A model generated the notes under the pieces. That model was not told where the DNA came from. It made no database searches and was given only the letters and a program-made list of their open reading frames with translations. A stretch of 22,085 nucleotides of DNA from a virus: IMG/VR virus record IMGVR_UViG_3300033571_011469, positions 1 through 22,085 of that record; one strand, 5' to 3'. Positions 1 to 20,767 of the stretch are shown in pieces. The translations under genes were made by a program, and so were the position numbers. The first letter of the stretch is position 1. Each line of letters starts with the position of its first letter.

Positions 1-3000
1 CGGAACCCTGCGAGCAGTTCCGCGCCAGCCTTCATGCCCGCTTCGGCGCTCTTAACCGCTGTCGTGTTCATCATCGCGAGAATCTTCGCTTCGATCTTCG
101 CAGCGACCTTATCCATTTGCGTTTGTAGTTTGGTCGCTTCACCATCTAGCCTTGCTTTCTCCGCAAGATAGATGCCCTCAATCTTTAGCAACGCATCACG
201 GCGCTGATCTTTGAGCGTTTCCAAATGATCGCGAGCGGTCTTTAGTTCCTCATCACGCAAATCATTAGCATCATCCAACGCCTTTTGCGCCGCATCACGC
301 GCAACCTCAAGCGGTCCAACAATCGCCTGCTGCTGCGCCACCCCAATGTCATGCCATTGAGCCGACGCATACGCACCGAAATCGTCAGCCTCCGCGAGCA
401 ACTGCGCCTGCACAGAGTTAATCGCCGCGATATCTTCCTGCGAACCAGCAGCCAAAGCAGCAGCCGCGTCACCCGCACCCGACACACCCGCCGAAACAAA
501 ATCCTGAACCAACGACGGGTCAAGCCCACGCTGCATAAGCGTGCGAATATTGCGGGAGAAATCACGCACAGCGGCAAGACGCTCTTCCAACGTTTGCCGG
601 ATAGCAGCAGGACCGCCCCCAACTTCCAGTTCACGCTCAAGCGTCACCGTTATGCCGTTAGCAAGGCGCTTCGTTTCCTTAACAATCTGCTTCGACGCCT
701 TACTAGATTCGAACGACAGACTATTAACGAACGAACGGAACCCGGACTTGATCTGCCCGACGAACTGATCCCGCTCTTGGATGAGCCTTTGTAGCACGGC
801 GTTCTCTTTGTCGAACGCTTCGTTCGCACCCTTCAACGCGGCTTCTAGGCCAGGGATTGCGGCAGCCCAGCGATCCTCAATCGCCTTAATGTTCTCCTCT
901 GCCTTTTTCTCAGCAACATCGTAGAAAGCATTAGTCTCAGCAATGGACTTTTGGTAATACTGTTCCAGCGTTTCCAACTCTTGCATAACCGTGTCGTACT
1001 GCCGTCGCAACTCAACAGCCTGCGCCGACAACTTACGCAATTCCCCAATGGTCTTTTGCATTTCCTTACGGTTACGCGCCGCCGCCTTCTCCCCGACGAT
1101 GGACGCATCCGTCAAAACAGAGTACGCCTGACGCACCTGATCGCGGATAGACAGGAACCCGTCAATCACACTATCTATGTCGGCTTCACTACCGAACATT
1201 TCGGTAATCTGCGACTCGCGACCGAACGGGCGAGCGACAAGATCACCCAAAGACGCGAACGCCTCACCCGCATACAACACCTTTTCGTTAATGCGGTCGA
1301 TCGCTTCGCCCAACTCAAGCAACGCAGCAAGAGCCCTTTTATTGTTTTTGATGAACTTTTCTGCGCCCTTAACGCCTAGCAGTTCCTCAAGCGGTGATTT
1401 CGTGGGGATGTTCCCGAACACTTGTGAGATTGCCCCTGCGACTGAACCGGAGTTAGCCGCAAGTGCCTGCGTGAAAGCATCGGCAAGGGACTTCGCAAGT
1501 TTCGTCGCCGCACCCTGCGCCCTAGGAATGTTGTATGTCACGCCCTGCGCTAGACCTAGAACCATGTTCCGGCCTATGCCCATGAACACGCGCGACGGAG
1601 AACCTTCCTGAGACTCAGCCCTCGCAGCCGCGATAGCCGCCGCCACAATCCTGCGCGCAGCAGCCGCCACCGGACCCTCACCATTATTCAGCGAGGTCAA
1701 CATGCCGCGCACAATGTTCGCGCCCACGTTCATGCCAGCACCCGACGCGGCAGAACGCATCTGATTAAGTCCCTGAATTAGACCCAACGCCGTGTTGCGT
1801 CCCGCCTGCATAGCCACCGTAGACGGCGAACTGATACCCAACGCGTCGTGGATTCCCTCTGCTGTAGTGTCCCCCGCTAGAGTTCCCGCCGCGTTCAGCG
1901 CGGACTCTTGCTCAGACATACCCTGTGTGATGCCCTGAGCGATAGCATCAGCAACATCTACCCCGGCTTCCTTAGCCTCCGTTACCGCATCGCCCATTTC
2001 CTTTACTTCATCGCGCGCAGCCTTAACCGCACCCTTCATATCCTTATAAAGTTTCGATGTTTTCGGGTCAATTTCACCCGCCTTCATCTGCTTTTCTACA
2101 TCCTTAAGCGCGCCTTCCATGACCTTGAGTTGCTTGCGCGGATCGTCAAGGGTCTTAGCGAACGCCATAGCGTCACCCATGTACCCGCGAATAGCGTCAC
2201 GGTTATCCATCGCAGACGACTCAGCATCAGCAAACGAATCCTTCATCGCCTGCAACGATGTAGTCATGCGATCCTGCGCCGCGCTCTGATTCAGAATTCC
2301 GTTCAATTCATCGAACGCAGTTTTAAGTGCCCGTACCGCAGCCTCAGTAGTGCGAGTAACGTCAGCGATTTCCTGCGTCGGACCCGCAGCGTTACCCATA
2401 GCGATAGCGGACGCCACCGTAGCCGACGTTAGCGACCTCTGCGCCTCTCCCGCAACCTGCGCGCCAATCGCTACGGACTCGTCAGCAATCTGAATTTCCT
2501 TGCCTGCCTGAACGTACGCGTCTGCCTGCGCCTGAATCGCCTGCACCGCCTGAGCCGCACGCAGCGGGTCAATCAAACCCGTAGCCCCCGCCTCAGTAAA
2601 CGACGCGATGACGGCTTCCAACTGTTCGCCACCCGCCATGACAGCAGAGACAACCTCTGCCATAGAAACCCCGGCGATATCGGCTAGTTGCTCAAAGTCC
2701 TGAACGTTGTTCTCAATCCACATGAAGCGGCCCCACTCGTTAGCGAGTAGAGCACCTGCGACAACCTCCGCTGCTGCCCGTTGCGCGGCTTCCCCCTGCT
2801 GCGAAAGAGCATCCGTGAGCGCAGCAACACGCGCTTCCGCTTCCGCACTCCTACCTGACAACACTTCATATGCGACGGACACGCCGATGATCGCCCACCC
2901 GACAGGGCCAAGCGACACCATGAAACCTTTAACCGCTGACGCCATAGATAGGAACGCTGCCTTAATCCCTACCGCTGCGACCTTCGCGCTAGCGGCTAAC

Positions 3001-4379
3001 GTGCCCCATGACACGCGCGCGATAGCAAACTGCGTCTTAAGCGTCGTAACAAAACCCGTGACAGACGCGCGCATCCCCACAAACGCGGTAGTAACCTTAG
3101 TTCGCAAAGTCGTAGCGCCCGCAGCCATGACCCCGAACATCGTCAGCACCTTGCCGCCGATCCACAAGATCGGACCCAACGCCGCAACGATCCCCGCGAA
3201 CGCGACGATCAACGATTTTGCCGGGCCGGGGAGCGCACTAAACCCGTCAAGCAAAACCTTCGCGAACTTCGCGAACTCAGTAACAACCGGGACGATAATG
3301 TCACCGATGCCGATAAGCGTTGCCTGCAACTGCACCATAGCCTGCTGCATCTTAAAACCAGCAGTATCAGCAGCAGCACCGAACGCCTCTTCCGTCATCC
3401 CGGCAGAATCAGCGACAACACCGAACGTGTCGGTGAGCGTCTGCGCATCTGCCCCTAGAATCTGGAACGCAGCAGACGCAGCCTCAGACGAACCTAGGAT
3501 GCGACCCAACTGTTCCCGGTTGCCGCCCAAAGCCTTATCAAGCATTTGCAGCGTGGCGGGTAGACCCTGCTTCGCGATGCTGTCACGCAACGCCTGAGCC
3601 GACAACCCAACGTCCTGCAAACCCTTTTTAGCCTCTTCCGTAGGTACAACAAACGCACGGAACAGGGCAGCGATCTGCGTGACTGACTGTGCCGCATCAC
3701 CATTGACGCGGGTAAGCAGCGCGACAGCGCCGCCCATTTCTGCGAATGACGCGCCTGCCTGCTGCGCGAAAGGCAACACGCGACCGATAGCAGCAGCGAA
3801 CTGTGAAGTCTCAAAGTTACCTGAGCGAGCGGTGGCAACCATCTGATCTGTTGCGTCAGCGGCGCTCAGTACGTCAGAGCCGTATGCGGATAGTGCTCCT
3901 GCGACCGCACGGGCGATATCAGAGGTTTCACCGAGTCCTGCCGCGCCTGCCTTCGCAGACATTTCCAAAGCCTGCATAGCGGTTTCGCCACGCAAACCCG
4001 CCGACGTAACAACAAACAACGCGTCAGCAAGTTCGACAGGGGATTTCGCCGTCTGCCCCGCGAGCGCGAGCACGTCCTCTTGCATCGCCTTGACTTCATC
4101 GGACGCGATGCCGACAAGCCCGACAATCTTATTCATGGACGATTCGAAATCGACCGATGCCTTGACAGCAGCCGCACCCACCGCAGCAAGCGGCAACGTC
4201 ACACCGATAGTCATGCCCTTGCCGACACGCGACATTTCCGTGCCGACAGCCTTAAGCCGATCCGACAAACGCCCCGCATCATCGGCGGCACCGTTAAACG
4301 ACTTTTTAAGCGCCGCCATTTTCGCCTGAACATCACTAATGTCCGCTTCGAACTTAGCGACAACATTAGCGACAGCCAC
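1..4379 (-). CDS. Tail tape measure protein (TP901 family), C-terminus outside window
   Basis: This frame is open from a GTG at 4379 to the left edge, giving at least 1459 residues with no stop. It encodes the tape measure protein, which sets tail length, chaperones tube assembly and is ejected into the host. The N-terminal part (about residues 1-350) reads as the TP901 tape-measure domain: KSPVELADALFVVTSAGLRG, then an AKAGAAGLGETSDIARAV-like stretch, then FAAAIGRVLPFAQQAG. Hydrophobic Ala/Gly/Val-rich segments follow, and the part nearest the left edge is rich in Lys, Glu and Gln and probably coiled coil. The GTG was chosen because it lies two bases after the stop of the frameshifted chaperone and has AGGTAG upstream; the first in-frame ATG would remove 20 residues. 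Family assignment is secure; only the 3' end is missing. Confidence 0.95.
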   Translation of the reverse strand, partial: MAVANVVAKFEADISDVQAKMAALKKSFNGAADDAGRLSDRLKAVGTEMSRVGKGMTIGVTLPLAAVGAAAVKASVDFESSMNKIVGLVGIASDEVKAMQEDVLALAGQTAKSPVELADALFVVTSAGLRGETAMQALEMSAKAGAAGLGETSDIARAVAGALSAYGSDVLSAADATDQMVATARSGNFETSQFAAAIGRVLPFAQQAGASFAEMGGAVALLTRVNGDAAQSVTQIAALFRAFVVPTEEAKKGLQDVGLSAQALRDSIAKQGLPATLQMLDKALGGNREQLGRILGSSEAASAAFQILGADAQTLTDTFGVVADSAGMTEEAFGAAADTAGFKMQQAMVQLQATLIGIGDIIVPVVTEFAKFAKVLLDGFSALPGPAKSLIVAFAGIVAALGPILWIGGKVLTMFGVMAAGATTLRTKVTTAFVGMRASVTGFVTTLKTQFAIARVSWGTLAASAKVAAVGIKAAFLSMASAVKGFMVSLGPVGWAIIGVSVAYEVLSGRSAEAEARVAALTDALSQQGEAAQRAAAEVVAGALLANEWGRFMWIENNVQDFEQLADIAGVSMAEVVSAVMAGGEQLEAVIASFTEAGATGLIDPLRAAQAVQAIQAQADAYVQAGKEIQIADESVAIGAQVAGEAQRSLTSATVASAIAMGNAAGPTQEIADVTRTTEAAVRALKTAFDELNGILNQSAAQDRMTTSLQAMKDSFADAESSAMDNRDAIRGYMGDAMAFAKTLDDPRKQLKVMEGALKDVEKQMKAGEIDPKTSKLYKDMKGAVKAARDEVKEMGDAVTEAKEAGVDVADAIAQGITQGMSEQESALNAAGTLAGDTTAEGIHDALGISSPSTVAMQAGRNTALGLIQGLNQMRSAASGAGMNVGANIVRGMLTSLNNGEGPVAAAARRIVAAAIAAARAESQEGSPSRVFMGIGRNMVLGLAQGVTYNIPRAQGAATKLAKSLADAFTQALAANSGSVAGAISQVFGNIPTKSPLEELLGVKGAEKFIKNNKRALAALLELGEAIDRINEKVLYAGEAFASLGDLVARPFGRESQITEMFGSEADIDSVIDGFLSIRDQVRQAYSVLTDASIVGEKAAARNRKEMQKTIGELRKLSAQAVELRRQYDTVMQELETLEQYYQKSIAETNAFYDVAEKKAEENIKAIEDRWAAAIPGLEAALKGANEAFDKENAVLQRLIQERDQFVGQIKSGFRSFVNSLSFESSKASKQIVKETKRLANGITVTLERELEVGGGPAAIRQTLEERLAAVRDFSRNIRTLMQRGLDPSLVQDFVSAGVSGAGDAAAALAAGSQEDIAAINSVQAQLLAEADDFGAYASAQWHDIGVAQQQAIVGPLEVARDAAQKALDDANDLRDEELKTARDHLETLKDQRRDALLKIEGIYLAEKARLDGEATKLQTQMDKVAAKIEAKILAMMNTTAVKSAEAGMKAGAELLAGF

Positions 4380-4990: not shown

Positions 4991-5419
4991 TTAGAACGTG
5001 GTGCCTGTAACGCCGCCCGTGACCTGCAACTCAAGTGAGTACGTCACAACGTCACCCACGGGGGACGAAACCTCATACGACGTAATCAGAGCCTCGCCCG
5101 TGAACTTAGGCTGCGCTGACGCGGAACCCGCAGGACCGTACTCAAACGAGATGCTAGAAACGGAACCGGACTTAAGGTTCGCGATGTTGCCAGCGATCAG
5201 GGTGTCCGTGGTGGCGTCGAACATGCCAGACAGGGAAATCGTGGCGTCGCCCAGACCCGTGATGTAGGTCTTGTCGTTCTGACCGAAAGCGGTAGTCTCC
5301 GCTGTCTCAATCTCGCGGGGCAGGCTGATCTCATTGAGCGTATCGCTGATATTAACGAGTGAACCAGCGGTTCCGTCAATGCGGAACTGAGCGTTCTTAC
5401 CATGCTTGAAGGTGGGCAT
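4991..5419 (-). CDS. Tail tube-like protein, short paralogue
   Basis: This 142-residue protein is clearly paralogous to the adjacent upstream 5425-6144 gene. Both begin MPTF.HGK and share EIETAETT.F, DKTYITGLGD.TIS.SG.FD and SYEVSSPVGDVV. Together these match a phage major tail protein (tail tube) fold rich in beta strands. This copy is a single domain and ends soon after the shared region (LQVTGGVTGTTF). It lies directly upstream of the chaperone genes, where the tube protein gene normally sits, and follows its paralogue after a five-base gap. It could be the tube subunit itself or a minor tube or terminator-like partner; the sequence does not decide. The start ATG at 5419 follows an AAGGAGAT ribosome-binding site. 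Confidence 0.75.
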   Translation of the reverse strand: MPTFKHGKNAQFRIDGTAGSLVNISDTLNEISLPREIETAETTAFGQNDKTYITGLGDATISLSGMFDATTDTLIAGNIANLKSGSVSSISFEYGPAGSASAQPKFTGEALITSYEVSSPVGDVVTYSLELQVTGGVTGTTF

Positions 5420-5424
5420 TTTCG

Positions 5425-6144
5425 TTATCTCCTTGCTGCCGAAACGTGGTAGGTGATAGAGCCGGATGATCCGGCGAGGGAATGTGCTGCACGGAGATAC
5501 TGATTAACCGTGCCCGTGCTAGTGATGCTCTCGCCCGTGGTGGACGACGCCGAAACAGCCGTAAACGTCACGAGGTCAACCCACGTTGCGTTGTCGGCAG
5601 AGTGCTGAACCTTAACCGTGGCTGCACCATCACGCGTGTTAGCAGTAACGTGAAAGTTAAACAAGCCACCGCCTGACGTAGCAGCACCGTCGTTAATCCC
5701 AGAGAGTGACGCGGAAGTGCCCGTGTTAAGCAGGCCATTCAGCGCGCGCCCTGAGAACAAGCCGCCGTCTGCCTGAACCTCCGCAGAAATGGCGACAACA
5801 TCCCCAACCGGGGACGAAACCTCGTATGAAGTCAACTGACCGTTAGCGATAATGGAGCGTGCCCCGGCTGTAGCGCCCTCAGGCAACACCGTGAAATGGT
5901 TATCCTCCTGACCGATAGCGCCGCTCAAAACAGCATTAGATGCGTTAGCGGTTCCATCGAACAGGCCGCTAGTAGAGATCGTGCCGTCACCTAGCCCGGT
6001 GATGTACGTCTTATCGTCGTCTGCGAACGTGGTTGTCTCCGCAGTTTCGATCTCTTGCGTCTGAGTCGCTTCGTTCAGGAACGGCGACATATCCGTGCCA
6101 TTCAGCAGCACAACCGTGCGCTTACCGTGACGGAAAGTAGGCAT
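5425..6144 (-). CDS. Major tail protein-like, long paralogue with extra C-terminal domain
   Basis: This protein has 239 residues. Residues 1 to about 130 align with the neighbouring short paralogue (same MPTF.HGK start, EIETAETTTF, DKTYITGLGDGTIS, TSYEVSSPVGDVV). A Gly/Ser/Ala linker then leads to a C-terminal beta-rich module of about 80 residues (FHVTANTRDGAATVKVQHS to the end). Such modules occur on the outside of tail proteins of many siphoviruses and may bind carbohydrate or decorate the tail. The ATG at 6144 directly follows the TAA of the preceding gene. A virion with two tube-type proteins could have a mixed tube, or one copy could be a specialised end protein. The paralogy is seen; the division of labour is unknown. 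Confidence 0.78.
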   Translation of the reverse strand: MPTFRHGKRTVVLLNGTDMSPFLNEATQTQEIETAETTTFADDDKTYITGLGDGTISTSGLFDGTANASNAVLSGAIGQEDNHFTVLPEGATAGARSIIANGQLTSYEVSSPVGDVVAISAEVQADGGLFSGRALNGLLNTGTSASLSGINDGAATSGGGLFNFHVTANTRDGAATVKVQHSADNATWVDLVTFTAVSASSTTGESITSTGTVNQYLRAAHSLAGSSGSITYHVSAARR

Positions 6145-6519: not shown

Positions 6520-6756
6520 CTAGTACAGACGCTCCGTGCGCCACGGGAGTGTGGCGAGTTCGGTGTAGGTCGCGGCGAGCGCGTCCGTGGGGATCGCGAT
6601 TGCGTACGGGGCGTCGGCGCTTGTGGCGCTCGCGGTGGTGTACTGCTCAACAGGAGAGTACATATCGACGCGAACCTGCGTGAGCGTTACGGTAGCGCCC
6701 TTCGGGAGCGTCCAACCGTGGAACTTGACCGGGCGGGTAGTGGTAGTGGTGAACAT
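6520..6756 (-). CDS. Hypothetical small protein
   Basis: This gene encodes 78 residues from the ATG at 6756, starting MFTTTTTRPVKFHGWTLPKG. The frame opens further upstream at 6819, but that codon lies inside the -10 region of promoter P1. The ATG at 6756 is downstream of the predicted start site and has AAGGGG before it, so I prefer it. The protein is rich in Thr, Val, Tyr and Ala, apparently beta-rich, with no transmembrane segment. I do not recognise the family. It is the last gene of the leftward early unit and is followed by a terminator. Confidence 0.65.
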   Translation of the reverse strand: MFTTTTTRPVKFHGWTLPKGATVTLTQVRVDMYSPVEQYTTASATSADAPYAIAIPTDALAATYTELATLPWRTERLY

Positions 6757-6803
6757 GGGCGGTGGCCCCTTCCCGGCTGCACCTTGCAGCCTCACATAAC
6801 CCC

Positions 6804-6832
6804 ATCTAAGCAGCCTCATGCTGCGCCGTCAA
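6804..6832 (-). promoter_or_regulatory. Promoter P1 with spacer dyad (class A)
   Basis: Minus strand: -35 TTGACG (6832-6827), 17-bp spacer, -10 TTAGAT (6809-6804). The spacer contains a perfect dyad GCAGC-N5-GCTGC (6810-6824) that abuts the -10. The promoter drives 6520-6756 and lies just after the stop of the gene upstream. It belongs to a family of seven in this window. Confidence 0.82.
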
Positions 6833-6836
6833 GTCC

Positions 6837-7187
6837 TTAGATCATCCTTTCCCTGTCCTCATAGGGATTGTCCACCCGGAAATCTTCCGGCACCCGCTTA
6901 ATGCACTCAGCGCCGACCGGAAACCATCCCATATCGCCGCCTCCGTGCGGGTAGGTCGCATAATCGTCGGGGTGGACGATCAAGCCACCGCCCCCGGAAA
7001 CGTACACACCATCTGAGTTCCCATTACGGCTAGCGTTACGACCGCAGAAAATGCACTCGCGTCCATCTGTGCTGCCGCCTTTACGCCCGTTGTTAATGCG
7101 ATTCCAGTAGGTGTCACCCCACATGACGCCGCTGGCATCTACGATGCGCGCGCCATGCAGGATTTCGGCTGTGAGTTTCCGATTCAT
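6837..7187 (-). CDS. Hypothetical Cys-containing phage protein
   Basis: This 116-residue protein starts at ATG 7187 and overlaps the stop of 7184-7477 by four bases (ATGA), so it is translationally coupled to it. A CIFCGR motif at C45/C48, with H72 and C95 further on (VGAEC), could form a zinc site. A Gly-rich stretch (VSGGGG) lies between. The C-terminus is charged. I do not recognise the family; short early proteins with a 'C..CGR' knuckle are common in actinophages. No catalytic motif is seen. Confidence 0.72.
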   Translation of the reverse strand: MNRKLTAEILHGARIVDASGVMWGDTYWNRINNGRKGGSTDGRECIFCGRNASRNGNSDGVYVSGGGGLIVHPDDYATYPHGGGDMGWFPVGAECIKRVPEDFRVDNPYEDRERMI

Positions 7188-7477
7188 CGGGCGATCCTGA
7201 CTCGCGAAACGGGGATGCCGTGGGCTGCTGCGTACTCGCGCTTCGCCGCGTTAATGGCTGCGCGGCGCTCACGCTGATCCAACTTCGCCATGAGATAGGC
7301 GATGACGTTAGCGAACGGCTGTGCGTCCTCATGGTCCTGCGCGCCGTACAACGCGAGCCATTGGATCGCGTTTTGCAAGTCGGCGTCTGACGGCTTGTGT
7401 GCGTCCATCCCGTCTGCGAGGAACCTGTCTACGGTGTCCTCGTCGGCGCTGATCCGCTCGTTCCATTCGATCTGCAT
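7184..7477 (-). CDS. Hypothetical charged helical protein
   Basis: This gene encodes 97 residues beginning MQIEWNERISADEDTVDRFL. The ATG at 7477 has AAGGGG just upstream and sits about 28 bases downstream of the P2 -10. The protein is predicted mostly helical, with an acidic N-terminal half and a basic C-terminal half (RERRAAINAAKREYAAAHG). No known domain is recognised. It is first in a two-gene unit with 6837-7187. Confidence 0.75.
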   Translation of the reverse strand: MQIEWNERISADEDTVDRFLADGMDAHKPSDADLQNAIQWLALYGAQDHEDAQPFANVIAYLMAKLDQRERRAAINAAKREYAAAHGIPVSRVRIAR

Positions 7478-7504
7478 TGCTTGCCCCTTTCGGTCGATAC
7501 CCTC

Positions 7505-7533
7505 ATCTAAGCAGCCTCACGCTGCGCTGTCAA
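7505..7533 (-). promoter_or_regulatory. Promoter P2 with spacer dyad (class A)
   Basis: Minus strand: -35 TTGACA (7533-7528), 17-bp spacer, -10 TTAGAT (7510-7505). A perfect dyad GCAGC-N5-GCTGC occupies 7511-7525. It drives 7184-7477 and 6837-7187. The bases GATCATTTTTA just upstream (7551-7561) also occur upstream of P3. Confidence 0.85.
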
Positions 7534-7585
7534 GTGGGGGCCGGATCATTTTTAGGTCAATCCCCCTGGGCCGGTCAGTTCCGCA

Positions 7586-7609
7586 CGACCCCTTTCGGGG
7601 TTTCGACTA
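7586..7609 (-). ncRNA. Conserved GNRA-tetraloop hairpin block, left arm
   Basis: Immediately after (and including) the TAG of the 7607-7789 gene, the minus strand reads TAGTCGAAA, then the hairpin CCCC-GAAA-GGGG, then TCG. The same 24-nt block, 22 bases identical, lies on the plus strand at 8427-8450, where the only changes are inside the loop (GCGA). No T-tract follows, so it is not a simple terminator. A downstream GACC (7575-7572) could pair with the GGTC at 7590-7587 as an alternative fold. Confidence 0.55.
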
Positions 7610-7789
7610 GAGCGAGTACGATCCGACCGCGACGTTCGCGTCATCCCCGTACGCCGGGTAGACGGTAAAGTCTCCGCACACCTTCGTTTCATCGTGGGCC
7701 AGAGATGCCGCCGACATTGGATCAGCAGCCGACACCTCCGTAAAGACGTAGCCCCCGCCCCTGACTTCGATAGAGACTGCGTACTTCAT
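7607..7789 (-). CDS. Hypothetical small protein, first leftward gene
   Basis: This gene encodes 60 residues beginning MKYAVSIEVRGGGYVFTEVS. The frame extends upstream to 7843, but that stretch includes the P3 -10, so the start is placed at ATG 7789, which has AGGGGAAG before it. The pattern of a beta strand, an acidic turn, a helix (DPMSAASLAHDE) and a strand suggests a small alpha/beta fold. I do not recognise it. Promoter P3 lies upstream and a conserved RNA hairpin begins at its stop codon. Confidence 0.7.
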   Translation of the reverse strand: MKYAVSIEVRGGGYVFTEVSAADPMSAASLAHDETKVCGDFTVYPAYGDDANVAVGSYSL

Positions 7790-7827
7790 GCGCTTCCCCT
7801 TCCGTGTGCCCCTGTTGGCATGACTCC

Positions 7828-7856
7828 ATCTAAGCAGGCTCACCCTGCCCTGTCAA
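7828..7856 (-). promoter_or_regulatory. Promoter P3 with spacer dyad (class A)
   Basis: Minus strand: -35 TTGACA (7856-7851), 17-bp spacer, -10 TTAGAT (7833-7828). The dyad is GCAGG-N5-CCTGC (7834-7848): relative to P1 and P2 both arms changed (C to G and G to C), so the symmetry is kept. It points away from P4 across the control region. Confidence 0.85.
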
Positions 7857-7948
7857 GTGTTGTCCAAGATCATTTTTAAAACATTTTTGGGTGTCCCGTT
7901 TTGTCCATTTTGAGAATCCAAGCGTTATCGTTTCGTTACCGAAAGCCC
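7857..7948. promoter_or_regulatory. AT-rich divergent control region between P3 and P4
   Basis: These 92 bases lie between the two divergent -35 elements and carry no gene. They hold A/T runs (ATTTTTAAAACATTTTT), repeated TGTCC words (TTGTCCA twice, TGTCCCG once), a direct repeat CGTTATCG/CGTTACCG, and an inverted repeat TTTCG-TTAC-CGAAA (7931-7944) ending four bases before the P4 -35. They could carry UP elements, operators or a replication origin; the sequence alone does not say which. Confidence 0.6.
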
Positions 7949-7977
7949 TTGACATCACAGCGTCAGGCTGCTTAGAT
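7949..7977 (+). promoter_or_regulatory. Promoter P4 with spacer dyad (class A)
   Basis: Plus strand: -35 TTGACA (7949-7954), 17-bp spacer, -10 TTAGAT (7972-7977). The dyad is ACAGC-N5-GCTGC (7957-7971), with one outer mismatch. It drives the rightward early genes from 8030 on. Confidence 0.85.
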
Positions 7978-8029
7978 GGAGTGTAGATCGCAAACAACTG
8001 CGGTCAATAACAGAATAGGGGGAACACAC

Positions 8030-8422
8030 ATGGAAACACGAGTGTTCGATCTGGGCACCATCCGTCTTGACGATGTTGCACTCATCGTGTCCGACATTGT
8101 GCGTGTCTACGAACGCACATTGGAATACACGAACTACATCATCGAAGATGAGTGCGTCCGACTCGTTAACGAAGAGCGGCGACGGCTGACACGCCACAAG
8201 ATCGCGGAAGCGAAAAGCCTACGCGATGCGTTAGACGATCCGAATGATCGACGTTACTCCATGAGTGCGTTTGATGCGGCGAGAAAACTCGCGGAAGCCC
8301 ACGAGTGGTACGGGCGCTGCATCGAACTGGTCACACACTTTGTCCACTTGGACAAGGCCGCAACCATCGAACACATTAAGTCAGAGCGTGCCCGTCGCAA
8401 GCGGATGGGGTGGGATGACTGA
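8030..8422 (+). CDS. Hypothetical helical early protein
   Basis: This gene encodes 130 residues beginning METRVFDLGTIRLDDVALIV. The frame is open from 7976, but that codon is inside the P4 -10, so the start is ATG 8030 with AGGGGGA upstream. The protein is highly charged and probably all-helical, with a basic region around RRRLTRHK and a basic C-terminus (ERARRKR); coiled-coil character is possible. No enzyme motif is seen and I do not recognise the family. As the first rightward early gene it may have a host-takeover or regulatory role, but that is inference from position only. Confidence 0.75.
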   Translation: METRVFDLGTIRLDDVALIVSDIVRVYERTLEYTNYIIEDECVRLVNEERRRLTRHKIAEAKSLRDALDDPNDRRYSMSAFDAARKLAEAHEWYGRCIELVTHFVHLDKAATIEHIKSERARRKRMGWDD

Positions 8423-8426
8423 GTGT

Positions 8427-8450
8427 TAGTCGAAACCCCGCGAGGGGTCG
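8427..8450 (+). ncRNA. Conserved GNRA-tetraloop hairpin block, right arm
   Basis: This is the plus-strand copy of the block at 7586-7609: TAGTCGAAA, hairpin CCCC-GCGA-GGGG, TCG. The loop differs (GCGA instead of GAAA) but remains a GNRA tetraloop, which points to selection on RNA structure. It starts five bases after the stop of the 8030-8422 gene. Confidence 0.55.
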
Positions 8451-8485
8451 CACGGGAATCGCCTCCCGTGCCTGACGAGACAGGC
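8450..8485 (+). ncRNA. Two further overlapping hairpins in the leader of a small membrane protein
   Basis: GCACGGGA (8450-8457) pairs perfectly with TCCCGTGC (8464-8471). GCCTG (8470-8474) pairs with CAGGC (8481-8485). The two hairpins share bases 8470-8471, so they partly exclude each other. With the preceding block they form a compact structured RNA before the GAAAGGGG ribosome-binding site (8485-8492) of the next gene. An attenuator, a processing site or a translational switch is possible. Confidence 0.45.
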
Positions 8486-8501
8486 GAAAGGGGTAACAGA
8501 A

Positions 8502-8603
8502 ATGAAGTTGACTAGGCGCGGCGAGACAGTCGCAGCGGTGGCGTTCCTCGTGCTGATCCTCGCGGGTATGGGGGTCGCGGGGTGGGTGGACGGACTCGCC
8601 TAA
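8502..8603 (+). CDS. 33-residue single-pass membrane protein
   Basis: A basic N-terminus (MKLTRRGE) precedes one hydrophobic helix of about 20 residues (AAVAFLVLILAGMGVAGW), and the protein ends DGLA. The ATG is preceded by GAAAGGGG nine bases upstream, a good ribosome-binding site, behind a strongly structured leader. Small phage membrane proteins of this type can act as superinfection-exclusion or lysis-accessory factors, but nothing in the sequence shows which. It sits alone between the hairpin cluster and promoter P5. Confidence 0.6.
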   Translation: MKLTRRGETVAAVAFLVLILAGMGVAGWVDGLA

Positions 8604-8634
8604 AACAGACATTACGGAATTAGGCAGTTTAGCC

Positions 8635-8663
8635 TTGACTATGCAGCGCGACCCTGCTTCACT
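8635..8663 (+). promoter_or_regulatory. Promoter P5 with spacer dyad (class B)
   Basis: -35 TTGACT (8635-8640), 17-bp spacer, -10 TTCACT (8658-8663), followed by AGACCT as in P6 and P7. The dyad is weaker: GCAGC-N5-CCTGC (8643-8657), with 4-bp arms. Where P6 and P7 have ATG at the predicted start site this copy has ATC, and the gene instead starts 37 bases on behind a ribosome-binding site. Confidence 0.75.
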
Positions 8664-8706
8664 AGACCTATCAGCGCCCCACGGGGCACGACAGAGGGGA
8701 AAGCAA

Positions 8707-8907
8707 ATGTTCACCATTATTCACCGCGACACCTATCAGGTCATCTACCAGGGGCCGCACAGCAACGTCGCATCCCGCAAGATGATGCAGGCAGGCGCGA
8801 TGCCTGCCGGATGGGTCAAGGTCAAGGGCAACACGGCAGACGCTCGCGCCGCCCTCGCGCTTGACGCAGAGCGCACCGCCGCCATGAAGGGAGCGTGGTC
8901 CCGATGA
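8707..8907 (+). CDS. Hypothetical small protein
   Basis: This gene encodes 66 residues beginning MFTIIHRDTYQVIYQGPHSN. The frame is open from 8635, but that part overlaps the promoter; the ATG at 8707 has AGAGGGGAAAG upstream and is chosen. The fold looks like two beta strands followed by helices, with an Ala-rich C-terminal helix (DARAALALDAERTAAM). It is unrecognised. It heads an overlapping chain of three genes (8707, 8904, 9242), so these products may act together. Confidence 0.72.
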   Translation: MFTIIHRDTYQVIYQGPHSNVASRKMMQAGAMPAGWVKVKGNTADARAALALDAERTAAMKGAWSR

Positions 8908-13490: not shown

Positions 13491-13546
13491 GGGGAATCGT
13501 ACATTCCTGACCTTTCGGAAACTTTCGGGATTTCCTAGGTTTGGGC

Positions 13547-13575
13547 TTAACAGGGCAGGGTCAGGCTGCTTAACT
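13547..13575 (+). promoter_or_regulatory. Promoter P6 with spacer dyad (class B)
   Basis: -35 TTAACA (13547-13552), 17-bp spacer, -10 TTAACT (13570-13575), then AGACCT and ATG at 13582. The dyad is GCAGG-N5-GCTGC (13555-13569), with 4-bp arms. The 35 bases upstream (13512-13546) closely match those upstream of P7 (CGGAAACTTT, then a GGGATTTCC-like word, then TTTGGGC). Confidence 0.82.
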
Positions 13576-19157: not shown

Positions 19158-20168
19158 GTGGCACGGGTACTACTGACAGGGGCATCCGGGTTCGTAGGGT
19201 CGCACGTTCTCCGTCACCTACTAGCGAACACAGACGATGAGATCGTGTGCCTTGTGTCTTTCCGGCATCGCGGAATCACAGACCGAATCCGTTACGCCGT
19301 GGCGGGTTTGGACGATGACTACCAGAGAGTGCAGGTCATCACCCACGATCTGACAGCACCGTTCAGCGCCGTACTTAACTATGAGATTGGGGAGATCGAC
19401 TACATCCTGAACGTCGCATCTGACTCCCATGTGGACAGGTCGATAACGCACCCTGCGCCGTTCATCGAAAACAACGTATCTTTAGCGGTTAACGTTTTCG
19501 AGTTTGCGCGACGCCGCGACATTAAACGCATCTTGCATGTTTCGACCGATGAAGTGTACGGGCCAGCAGCACCGGGCCACGCACACAAAGAGTGGACCGA
19601 TCAGTACCTACCATCGAACCCATACAGCGCGTCTAAAGCAGCGCAAGAGTCCATCGGTTACGGGTACTGGCGCACCTACGATATGCCCCTAGTCATCACG
19701 AACACGATGAACATTATTGGGGAAATGCAAGACCCGGAAAAGTTCGTGCCGATGGTGATGCAATGCGTGATCGCGGGAGAGCCTGTCCCCATCCACGCAT
19801 CCCCGGAAGGCGTGATCGGTTCCCGGTTCTACTTGCACGCGAGGAACCAGGCTGACGCGTTGCTGTTCGCTCTCACGCAGGACGCCCCGACATTCTGGGA
19901 ATCCCCCACCCCGGCTAAATGGCATGTCGTGGGAGAGCGCGAAGTAACGAATCTGGAAATGGCGCAGATGGTCGCTGACTGTCTAGGCAAACCGCTGCGC
20001 TATGACCTCGTGGATTTCCATTCCTCGCGTCCCGGTCACGATCTCAGGTACGCGCTTGACGGGTCGAAGATCGCTGACGCCGGATGGAAAGCACCGCTAT
20101 CGCTAGAACAATCGTTGGAACGTACTGTGCGGTGGACGTTGGATCATCCGCAATGGCTGAACCTGTGA
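19158..20168 (+). CDS. NAD-dependent sugar-nucleotide 4,6-dehydratase-like protein (RmlB-like extended SDR)
   Basis: This gene encodes 336 residues. The Rossmann glycine motif TGASGFVGSH (7-16), NVASDSHVDRSI (85-96), STDEVYG (129-135) and YSASK (156-160, Tyr and Lys of the SDR catalytic pair) are present. The T130-D131-E132 triad is the one used for dehydration in dTDP-glucose 4,6-dehydratase, so dehydratase activity is more likely than epimerase. The substrate cannot be read from the sequence. The GTG start has GAAGGGG upstream and lies 13 bases after the terminase stop. In phages such enzymes may supply deoxysugars for decorating the virion or host surface. No glycosyltransferase is visible nearby. 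Confidence 0.9.
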   Translation: MARVLLTGASGFVGSHVLRHLLANTDDEIVCLVSFRHRGITDRIRYAVAGLDDDYQRVQVITHDLTAPFSAVLNYEIGEIDYILNVASDSHVDRSITHPAPFIENNVSLAVNVFEFARRRDIKRILHVSTDEVYGPAAPGHAHKEWTDQYLPSNPYSASKAAQESIGYGYWRTYDMPLVITNTMNIIGEMQDPEKFVPMVMQCVIAGEPVPIHASPEGVIGSRFYLHARNQADALLFALTQDAPTFWESPTPAKWHVVGEREVTNLEMAQMVADCLGKPLRYDLVDFHSSRPGHDLRYALDGSKIADAGWKAPLSLEQSLERTVRWTLDHPQWLNL

Positions 20169-20674: not shown

Positions 20675-20738
20675 TCGTTTCTACCCCTCGCGGGAAAACG
20701 GACATAACGGAAACTTTTAGGAATCCCCCGATTTGGGC

Positions 20739-20767
20739 TTGACGGTACAGCCTCAGGCTGTTTAACT
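20739..20767 (+). promoter_or_regulatory. Promoter P7 with spacer dyad (class B)
   Basis: -35 TTGACG (20739-20744), 17-bp spacer, -10 TTAACT (20762-20767), AGACCC, then ATG at 20774. The dyad is ACAGC-N5-GCTGT (20747-20761), perfect and extending to 7-bp arms (ACAGCCT/AGGCTGT). The outer pair is A-T where other copies have G-C. Upstream bases match those of P6. Confidence 0.86.

Follow-up and report, generated by a model that had tools for sequence, protein, structure and literature searches.

Type II hammerhead ribozymes with a pseudoknot were described in prophages by Perreault et al. in 2011, where they flank genes in clusters and a role in transcript processing was suggested (PMC3088659). 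The clustered prophage hammerheads of that study cut in vitro and in E. coli, and sets such as the triple one around ardA in Agrobacterium, in which several ribozymes flank single genes or small blocks as they do in the phages studied here, were proposed to divide long transcripts (PMC3088659). The hammerhead of the haloviruses HF1 and HF2 (HHphage) likewise lies just before an early virus gene, and the 5' end of its mRNA was mapped near the cleavage site (PMC3088659). Theta (HDV-like) ribozymes of gut phages are also self-cleaving and are thought to process phage transcripts (PMC10879173). According to a 2023 paper, it is still not known what biological reason underlies such ribozyme associations (PMC10085705).

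The window analysed here (22,085 nt) is a 22-kb fragment without close cultured relatives, and the contigs compared with it come from uncultured viruses. In this window the sequence-only reading had singled out a 24-nt hairpin repeat that follows a gene in both divergent arms. The repeat, with 22 of 24 bases shared by TAGTCGAAACCCCGAAAGGGGTCG (7586-7609, minus strand) and TAGTCGAAACCCCGCGAGGGGTCG (8427-8450, plus strand), was borne out. Its two mismatches both fall in the tetraloop, which is GNRA in either copy; the two copies are the only matches in the whole window at up to three mismatches, and none was found at that threshold in 100 dinucleotide-preserving shuffles of the window. Each copy indeed stands directly after a gene, with the TAG stop of the preceding gene overlapping the minus motif and a TGA (8420-8422) a few nucleotides ahead of the plus motif. 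The lack of a T-tract was also confirmed, since no intrinsic terminator or attenuator (G+C-rich hairpin plus T-tract) was found in 6700-8800, where 1.8 were expected.

The natural unit, however, is not 24 nt. From its architecture, the repeat forms the 5' half of a hammerhead ribozyme of type II (Table 1), and only this half was recognised earlier because the 24 bases end one base beyond the predicted cut. The intact ribozyme extends past the repeat to 8489, and the hammerhead sequence of the minus copy extends to 7573 and then breaks. The two arms thus share a matching 24 nt but their copies are not equivalent, the plus copy being complete and the minus copy truncated. A free-standing hairpin or terminator was ruled out by the Rfam match of the plus copy together with the zero terminators found. 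The suggested link to RNA processing stands, whereas an attenuator or RNase-site hairpin does not, as a self-cleaving hammerhead needs no RNase.

Table 1 Features of the hammerhead locus, with positions in the window.
Feature	Position	Strand	Basis
Promoter-like element copies	6796-6834 (-), 7497-7535 (-), 7820-7858 (-), 7948-7974 (+), 13546-13572 (+), 20738-20764 (+)		
Promoter-region sequence joined to truncated end	7499-7573	-	96% identical in relative L017, no ribozyme preceding there
Truncated hammerhead: stem II 3' strand, GAAA, stem III (GAAA loop), UC^G site, stem I 5' strand, pseudoknot loop	7573-7608	-	Family model R1
Gene preceding truncated copy, ~60 aa, TAG stop overlapping motif	7607-7789	-	ORF, start inferred
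Gene upstream of intact ribozyme, ~130 aa, no assigned function	8030-8422	+	ORF, start inferred
Complete type II hammerhead ribozyme	8428-8489	+	Rfam RF02276, 40.0 bits vs cut-off 37
Stem II 3' strand GUC, partner 8479-8481	8429-8431	+	Sequence; 100% of cells paired, 30 sequences
Core GAAA (G12 A13 A14 A15.1)	8432-8435	+	Invariant in 30-sequence alignment
Stem III ACCCC/GGGGU, GCGA tetraloop	8435-8448	+	Sequence; two-sided changes at 3/5 pairs
Predicted cleavage site C^G after H17, C8449/G8450	8449-8450	+	Inferred from hammerhead architecture
Stem I hairpin GCACGGG(A)/(U)CCCGUGC with pseudoknot loop	8450-8471	+	Family stem I pairing, own vs swapped strands
Pseudoknot 5' strand UCGCCU, 6 bp with AGGCGA at 8482-8487	8459-8464	+	Own vs swapped complementarity; double changes
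Core CUGACGA (8472-8478) and stem II 5' strand GAC	8472-8481	+	Sequence
Gene downstream of intact ribozyme, 33-aa probable membrane peptide MKLTRRGETVAAVAFLVLILAGMGVAGWVDGLA	8502-8603	+	Identical in L017 and L058

By sequence, the plus copy is a complete type II hammerhead. The core CUGANGA and GAAA, the A15.1-U16.1 pair (A8435-U8448) and H17 (C8449) are all present; stems I and III are closed and stem II is open, in the order GAAA, stem III, cleavage site, stem I, CUGANGA; and the loop I-to-tail pseudoknot, a feature common but not universal in type II, is found as well. The core segment CUGANGAGAC at 8472-8481 occurs only once in the window, both strands counted. The family model R1 gave the plus copy 82.8 bits (E 5e-22), a score that is not independent because the plus copy is among R1's 30 sequences; the Rfam score is independent. 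Folded alone, in a calculation without the pseudoknot, its minimum free energy fold lies about 2 kcal/mol from the hammerhead fold. A Shine-Dalgarno-like AAAGGGG follows the ribozyme, then the ATG at 8502. The plus copy probably cuts the mRNA between the two genes.

The search for further copies in relatives, which had been put forward with a covariance model in mind, returned many more. Scanning viral contigs for the exact pattern yielded 25 loci, and a type I or II hammerhead lies at the motif in every one but L024. With a strict descriptor, 94 non-identical contexts were recovered, most of them type II, with 79 distinct type II copies, counted as distinct sequences and not as independent origins, many loci overlapping or coming from near-identical contigs; row L001 of this tabulation is the window's own plus copy. 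No match to the descriptor was found in a block-shuffled control sequence. In an alignment of 30 sequences, hand-picked from the descriptor matches and including the window's plus copy, 93.2% of cells were paired against 74.2% in column shuffles, and the covariation score was 0.485 against 0.117. Sliding the partner by one column lowered pairing to 40% or less, and two of the pseudoknot pairs showed 16 and 12 double changes. Stem I formed 5.89 of 6 pairs within copies and 3.17 with strands swapped between copies, and the mean pseudoknot complementarity was 5.06 bp with own strands and 3.54 bp with swapped ones. The argument that loop changes keeping GNRA point to a functional RNA was right in that a stable tetraloop is kept, but the rule is wider: it concerns stable tetraloops generally and not GNRA alone, because 35 of the 79 copies have a GNRA stem III loop and another 32 a UNCG one (67 of 79 together). 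Type I hammerheads were also seen between genes in L004, L010, L015, L018 and L027, with the same GUCGAAACCCC-GCAA-GGGGUC segment, and stand in series of two to three each in L010, L015 and L027.

The minus copy (7608-7573) runs AGUC, GAAA, CCCC, GAAA, GGGG, UC, GUGCGG and AACUGACC. It matches piecewise the first 36-38 nt of intact copies (e.g., L012:3766-3829), stem I strand and pseudoknot loop (AACUGACC) among the matched pieces. With filters off, R1 gave it 27.2 bits, from the 5' half, with the core in the 3' part unmatched, and no Rfam match was found even at E 10. As regards type II membership, neither CUGANGA nor the 3' strands of stems I and II were found. There is no CUGANGA within 400 nt 3' of the copy, and the only minus-strand occurrences in the window (3146, 2485, and 388) are all far from it. 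Reading it as a hammerhead of type I or III, with CUGANGA upstream, or as one with a very long stem I was rejected: no CUGANGA is near it on that strand, and the closest letters, CUGACCG, break the core at two positions. The 36-nt family match stops at 7573, where the homology to L017 begins. Of roughly 110 candidate 5' halves, drawn from 1 Mb of loci both related and unrelated, 99 had a core within reach and 12 did not, and the minus copy was the only convincing one of these 12 not explained by a contig end; one other plausible partial copy was ended by a contig end and the remaining coreless ones resemble chance matches. The minus copy is best read as a truncated ribozyme that is probably catalytically dead and would be unable to cut in cis because its 3' half has been lost.

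The surroundings of both copies show signs of gene exchange. From the ribozyme rightward, L017 and L058 share 96-97% identity with the window; this homology starts at the ribozyme's 5' end, and the upstream gene differs in each while the ribozyme is retained. The gene for the 33-aa peptide lies just 3' of a hammerhead in both of these relatives too. Searches of viral contigs gave no relatives for either flanking gene product; local tblastn later matched the plus-strand gene in L096, L097, L101, and L104, and the ~60-aa minus-strand gene had no relative in either search. The homologues of the upstream gene in L104, L096 and L097 have hammerheads on both sides, and that in L101 has the upstream one only, its downstream side being cut off. 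In L104, whose homologue is 63% identical, the hammerhead on each side is kept with the letters of stem I and the pseudoknot changed. Two adjacent genes of 97 and 116 aa that lie in the minus arm of the window (6837-7477) are found in the plus arm of L058 before a hammerhead (2741-3387), and likewise in L059. This relocation between divergent arms suggests an inversion or exchange; genes are shuffled at the locus, and the truncation of the minus copy is consistent with such an event. Several gene blocks, on both strands, are headed by a promoter-like repeat, CTTGAC...CAGGCTGCTTAGATG, and three minus-strand copies of it have an ATGATC motif immediately upstream.

The relatives carrying arrays have a major tail protein 92-97% identical to that of the window, and the best cultured relative by this protein is an Arthrobacter phage (39%). 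Two adjacent, related major-tail-protein genes lie at 4991-5419 and 5425-6144 on the minus strand (phrog_10528 and phrog_9522), and a nucleotide-sugar epimerase/dehydratase gene (19158-20168, plus strand) lies directly 3' of the large terminase gene. Cultured phage DNA gave no match to the locus or the ribozyme, and a host search in genome contigs gave no match.

In related phages, up to eight hammerheads follow one another in series, ribozyme-gene-ribozyme, with small early genes between them. In 80% of copies the stop codon of the upstream gene ends no more than 12 nt ahead of G12, compared with 3.3% at positions displaced by 60-600 nt, and the downstream start codon lies most commonly 32 nt after C3; the tabulation took the longest overlapping frame, and one L017 stop and several starts that were mis-assigned were kept in, which only blurs the peaks. 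The commonest stop register is TAG-UC-GAAA, in which the last base of the stop codon lies in stem II. Because the stop codon stands against, and often overlaps, stem II, a ribosome that terminates on the upstream gene would sit over GAAA and stem III. The hammerheads might therefore be gated by translation, with folding delayed by the terminating ribosome and cutting tied to completed upstream translation; we offer this as a tentative idea that we consider rather unlikely. If it were true, cutting in arrays of as many as eight ribozymes would be coupled, gene by gene, to the finished translation of the small early genes. Some arrays are headed by a ribozyme without a gene just upstream (4154-4229, minus strand, in L097, L094 and L098; 4196-4263, minus strand, in L102), and these have a longer stem III. 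A hammerhead at the head of an array would trim the 5' leader of the transcript.

We consider it highly likely that the intact hammerhead cuts itself between two co-transcribed early genes and that the minus copy is a truncated relative with no cis cutting. Ribozyme identity, covariation, placement and truncation rest on the sequence. Cutting is inferred because the core is intact and similar prophage clusters cleave in vitro and in E. coli (PMC3088659), and the separation of the mRNAs and any effect on their stability and expression would follow from it. The P4 transcript would fold and cut itself co-transcriptionally between C8449 and G8450. The upstream mRNA would then have the stem III tetraloop hairpin at its end, carrying a 2',3'-cyclic phosphate; the downstream mRNA would open with the stem I hairpin, which bears the 5'-OH, and its own ribosome-binding site would come next, so that a polycistronic early transcript would become gene-sized mRNAs with hairpins at their ends. 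On the minus strand, the gene would have kept the 5' half of its ribozyme, with the 3' half lost at the join to the P2 promoter region.

Three other readings were weighed. The element could be a non-catalytic hairpin (attenuator, RNase site, or 3'-end protector) whose likeness to a hammerhead is incidental, given that the stem III hairpin is common to both copies, each after a stop codon, and that only the 5' half is kept in the minus copy. We regard this as very improbable, as the plus copy scores above the Rfam cut-off; across the 30 sequences the catalytic core, stem I and the pseudoknot show conservation or covariation; and a 5' half standing alone is hardly seen elsewhere, the sole other plausible partial copy in 1 Mb being due to a contig end and the rest being chance-like. 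Improbable, though somewhat less so, is the reading of the plus copy as a ribozyme by descent that now serves mainly as a boundary at the DNA level, the conserved 62-nt repeats allowing recombinational swapping of gene cassettes. The homology of L017 and L058 begins at the ribozyme's 5' end with different genes upstream, the minus copy is itself broken at a junction, and 34% of block ends lie inside hammerheads, which cover 17% of the length. This two-fold excess is confounded with gene borders, and we do not claim recombination at ribozymes: gene borders are where phage mosaic joints lie in any case, and the borders in arrays are ribozymes, so the boundaries are not independent. Moreover, the compensatory changes in stem I and the pseudoknot lower the likeness of the DNA repeats and preserve the RNA fold.

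Continued use of the truncated copy, either cut in trans by the 3' half of the plus copy or serving as a 3'-end hairpin, seems about equally improbable. Outside the loop its 5' half has every letter intact, its stem II GUC is compatible with the GAC of the plus 3' strand, and GUGCGG can pair with CCGUGC via two wobbles. However, cutting in trans was rejected for poor arm pairing, the trans stem I arm giving -7.8 kcal/mol against -14.5 kcal/mol for the plus copy's own arm. The half is also absent from the relatives L017, L058 and L059, and a young deletion would appear just as intact. Self-cutting by the plus copy, with a minus copy that has lost its function in cis, is the reading we retain.

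A previously unexplained hairpin can now be read as a defined catalytic RNA. In an uncultured phage family most like actinobacterial phages, small early genes can have hammerhead borders at a near-fixed distance from stop and start codons, and the regular eight-copy arrays, alongside variants that occur naturally with one copy or in truncated form, allow the ideas of mRNA division and translation coupling to be tested directly.

With phage hammerhead clusters on record since 2011, the plus copy adds a member to a known kind. It shares with described type II hammerheads (RF02276; PMC3088659) the core, the stem order (II open, III and I closed), the short stem II, the pseudoknot and the phage setting, and we found no difference from them in the plus copy, whereas the minus copy is without the 3' half. 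The halovirus HF1/HF2 hammerhead differs in having a core variant and in belonging to archaeal viruses (PMC3088659), and the theta ribozymes are of another ribozyme class and are described as associated with tRNA genes, not with mRNA borders (PMC10879173). Compared with clusters of the Agrobacterium ardA type, the relatives here have up to eight ribozymes in series in a near-fixed stop register, and the window has one intact copy. No description of the stop-codon register or of such array lengths was found in the passages of the literature examined. The notable parts of this system are its stop-codon register and its eight-fold arrays.
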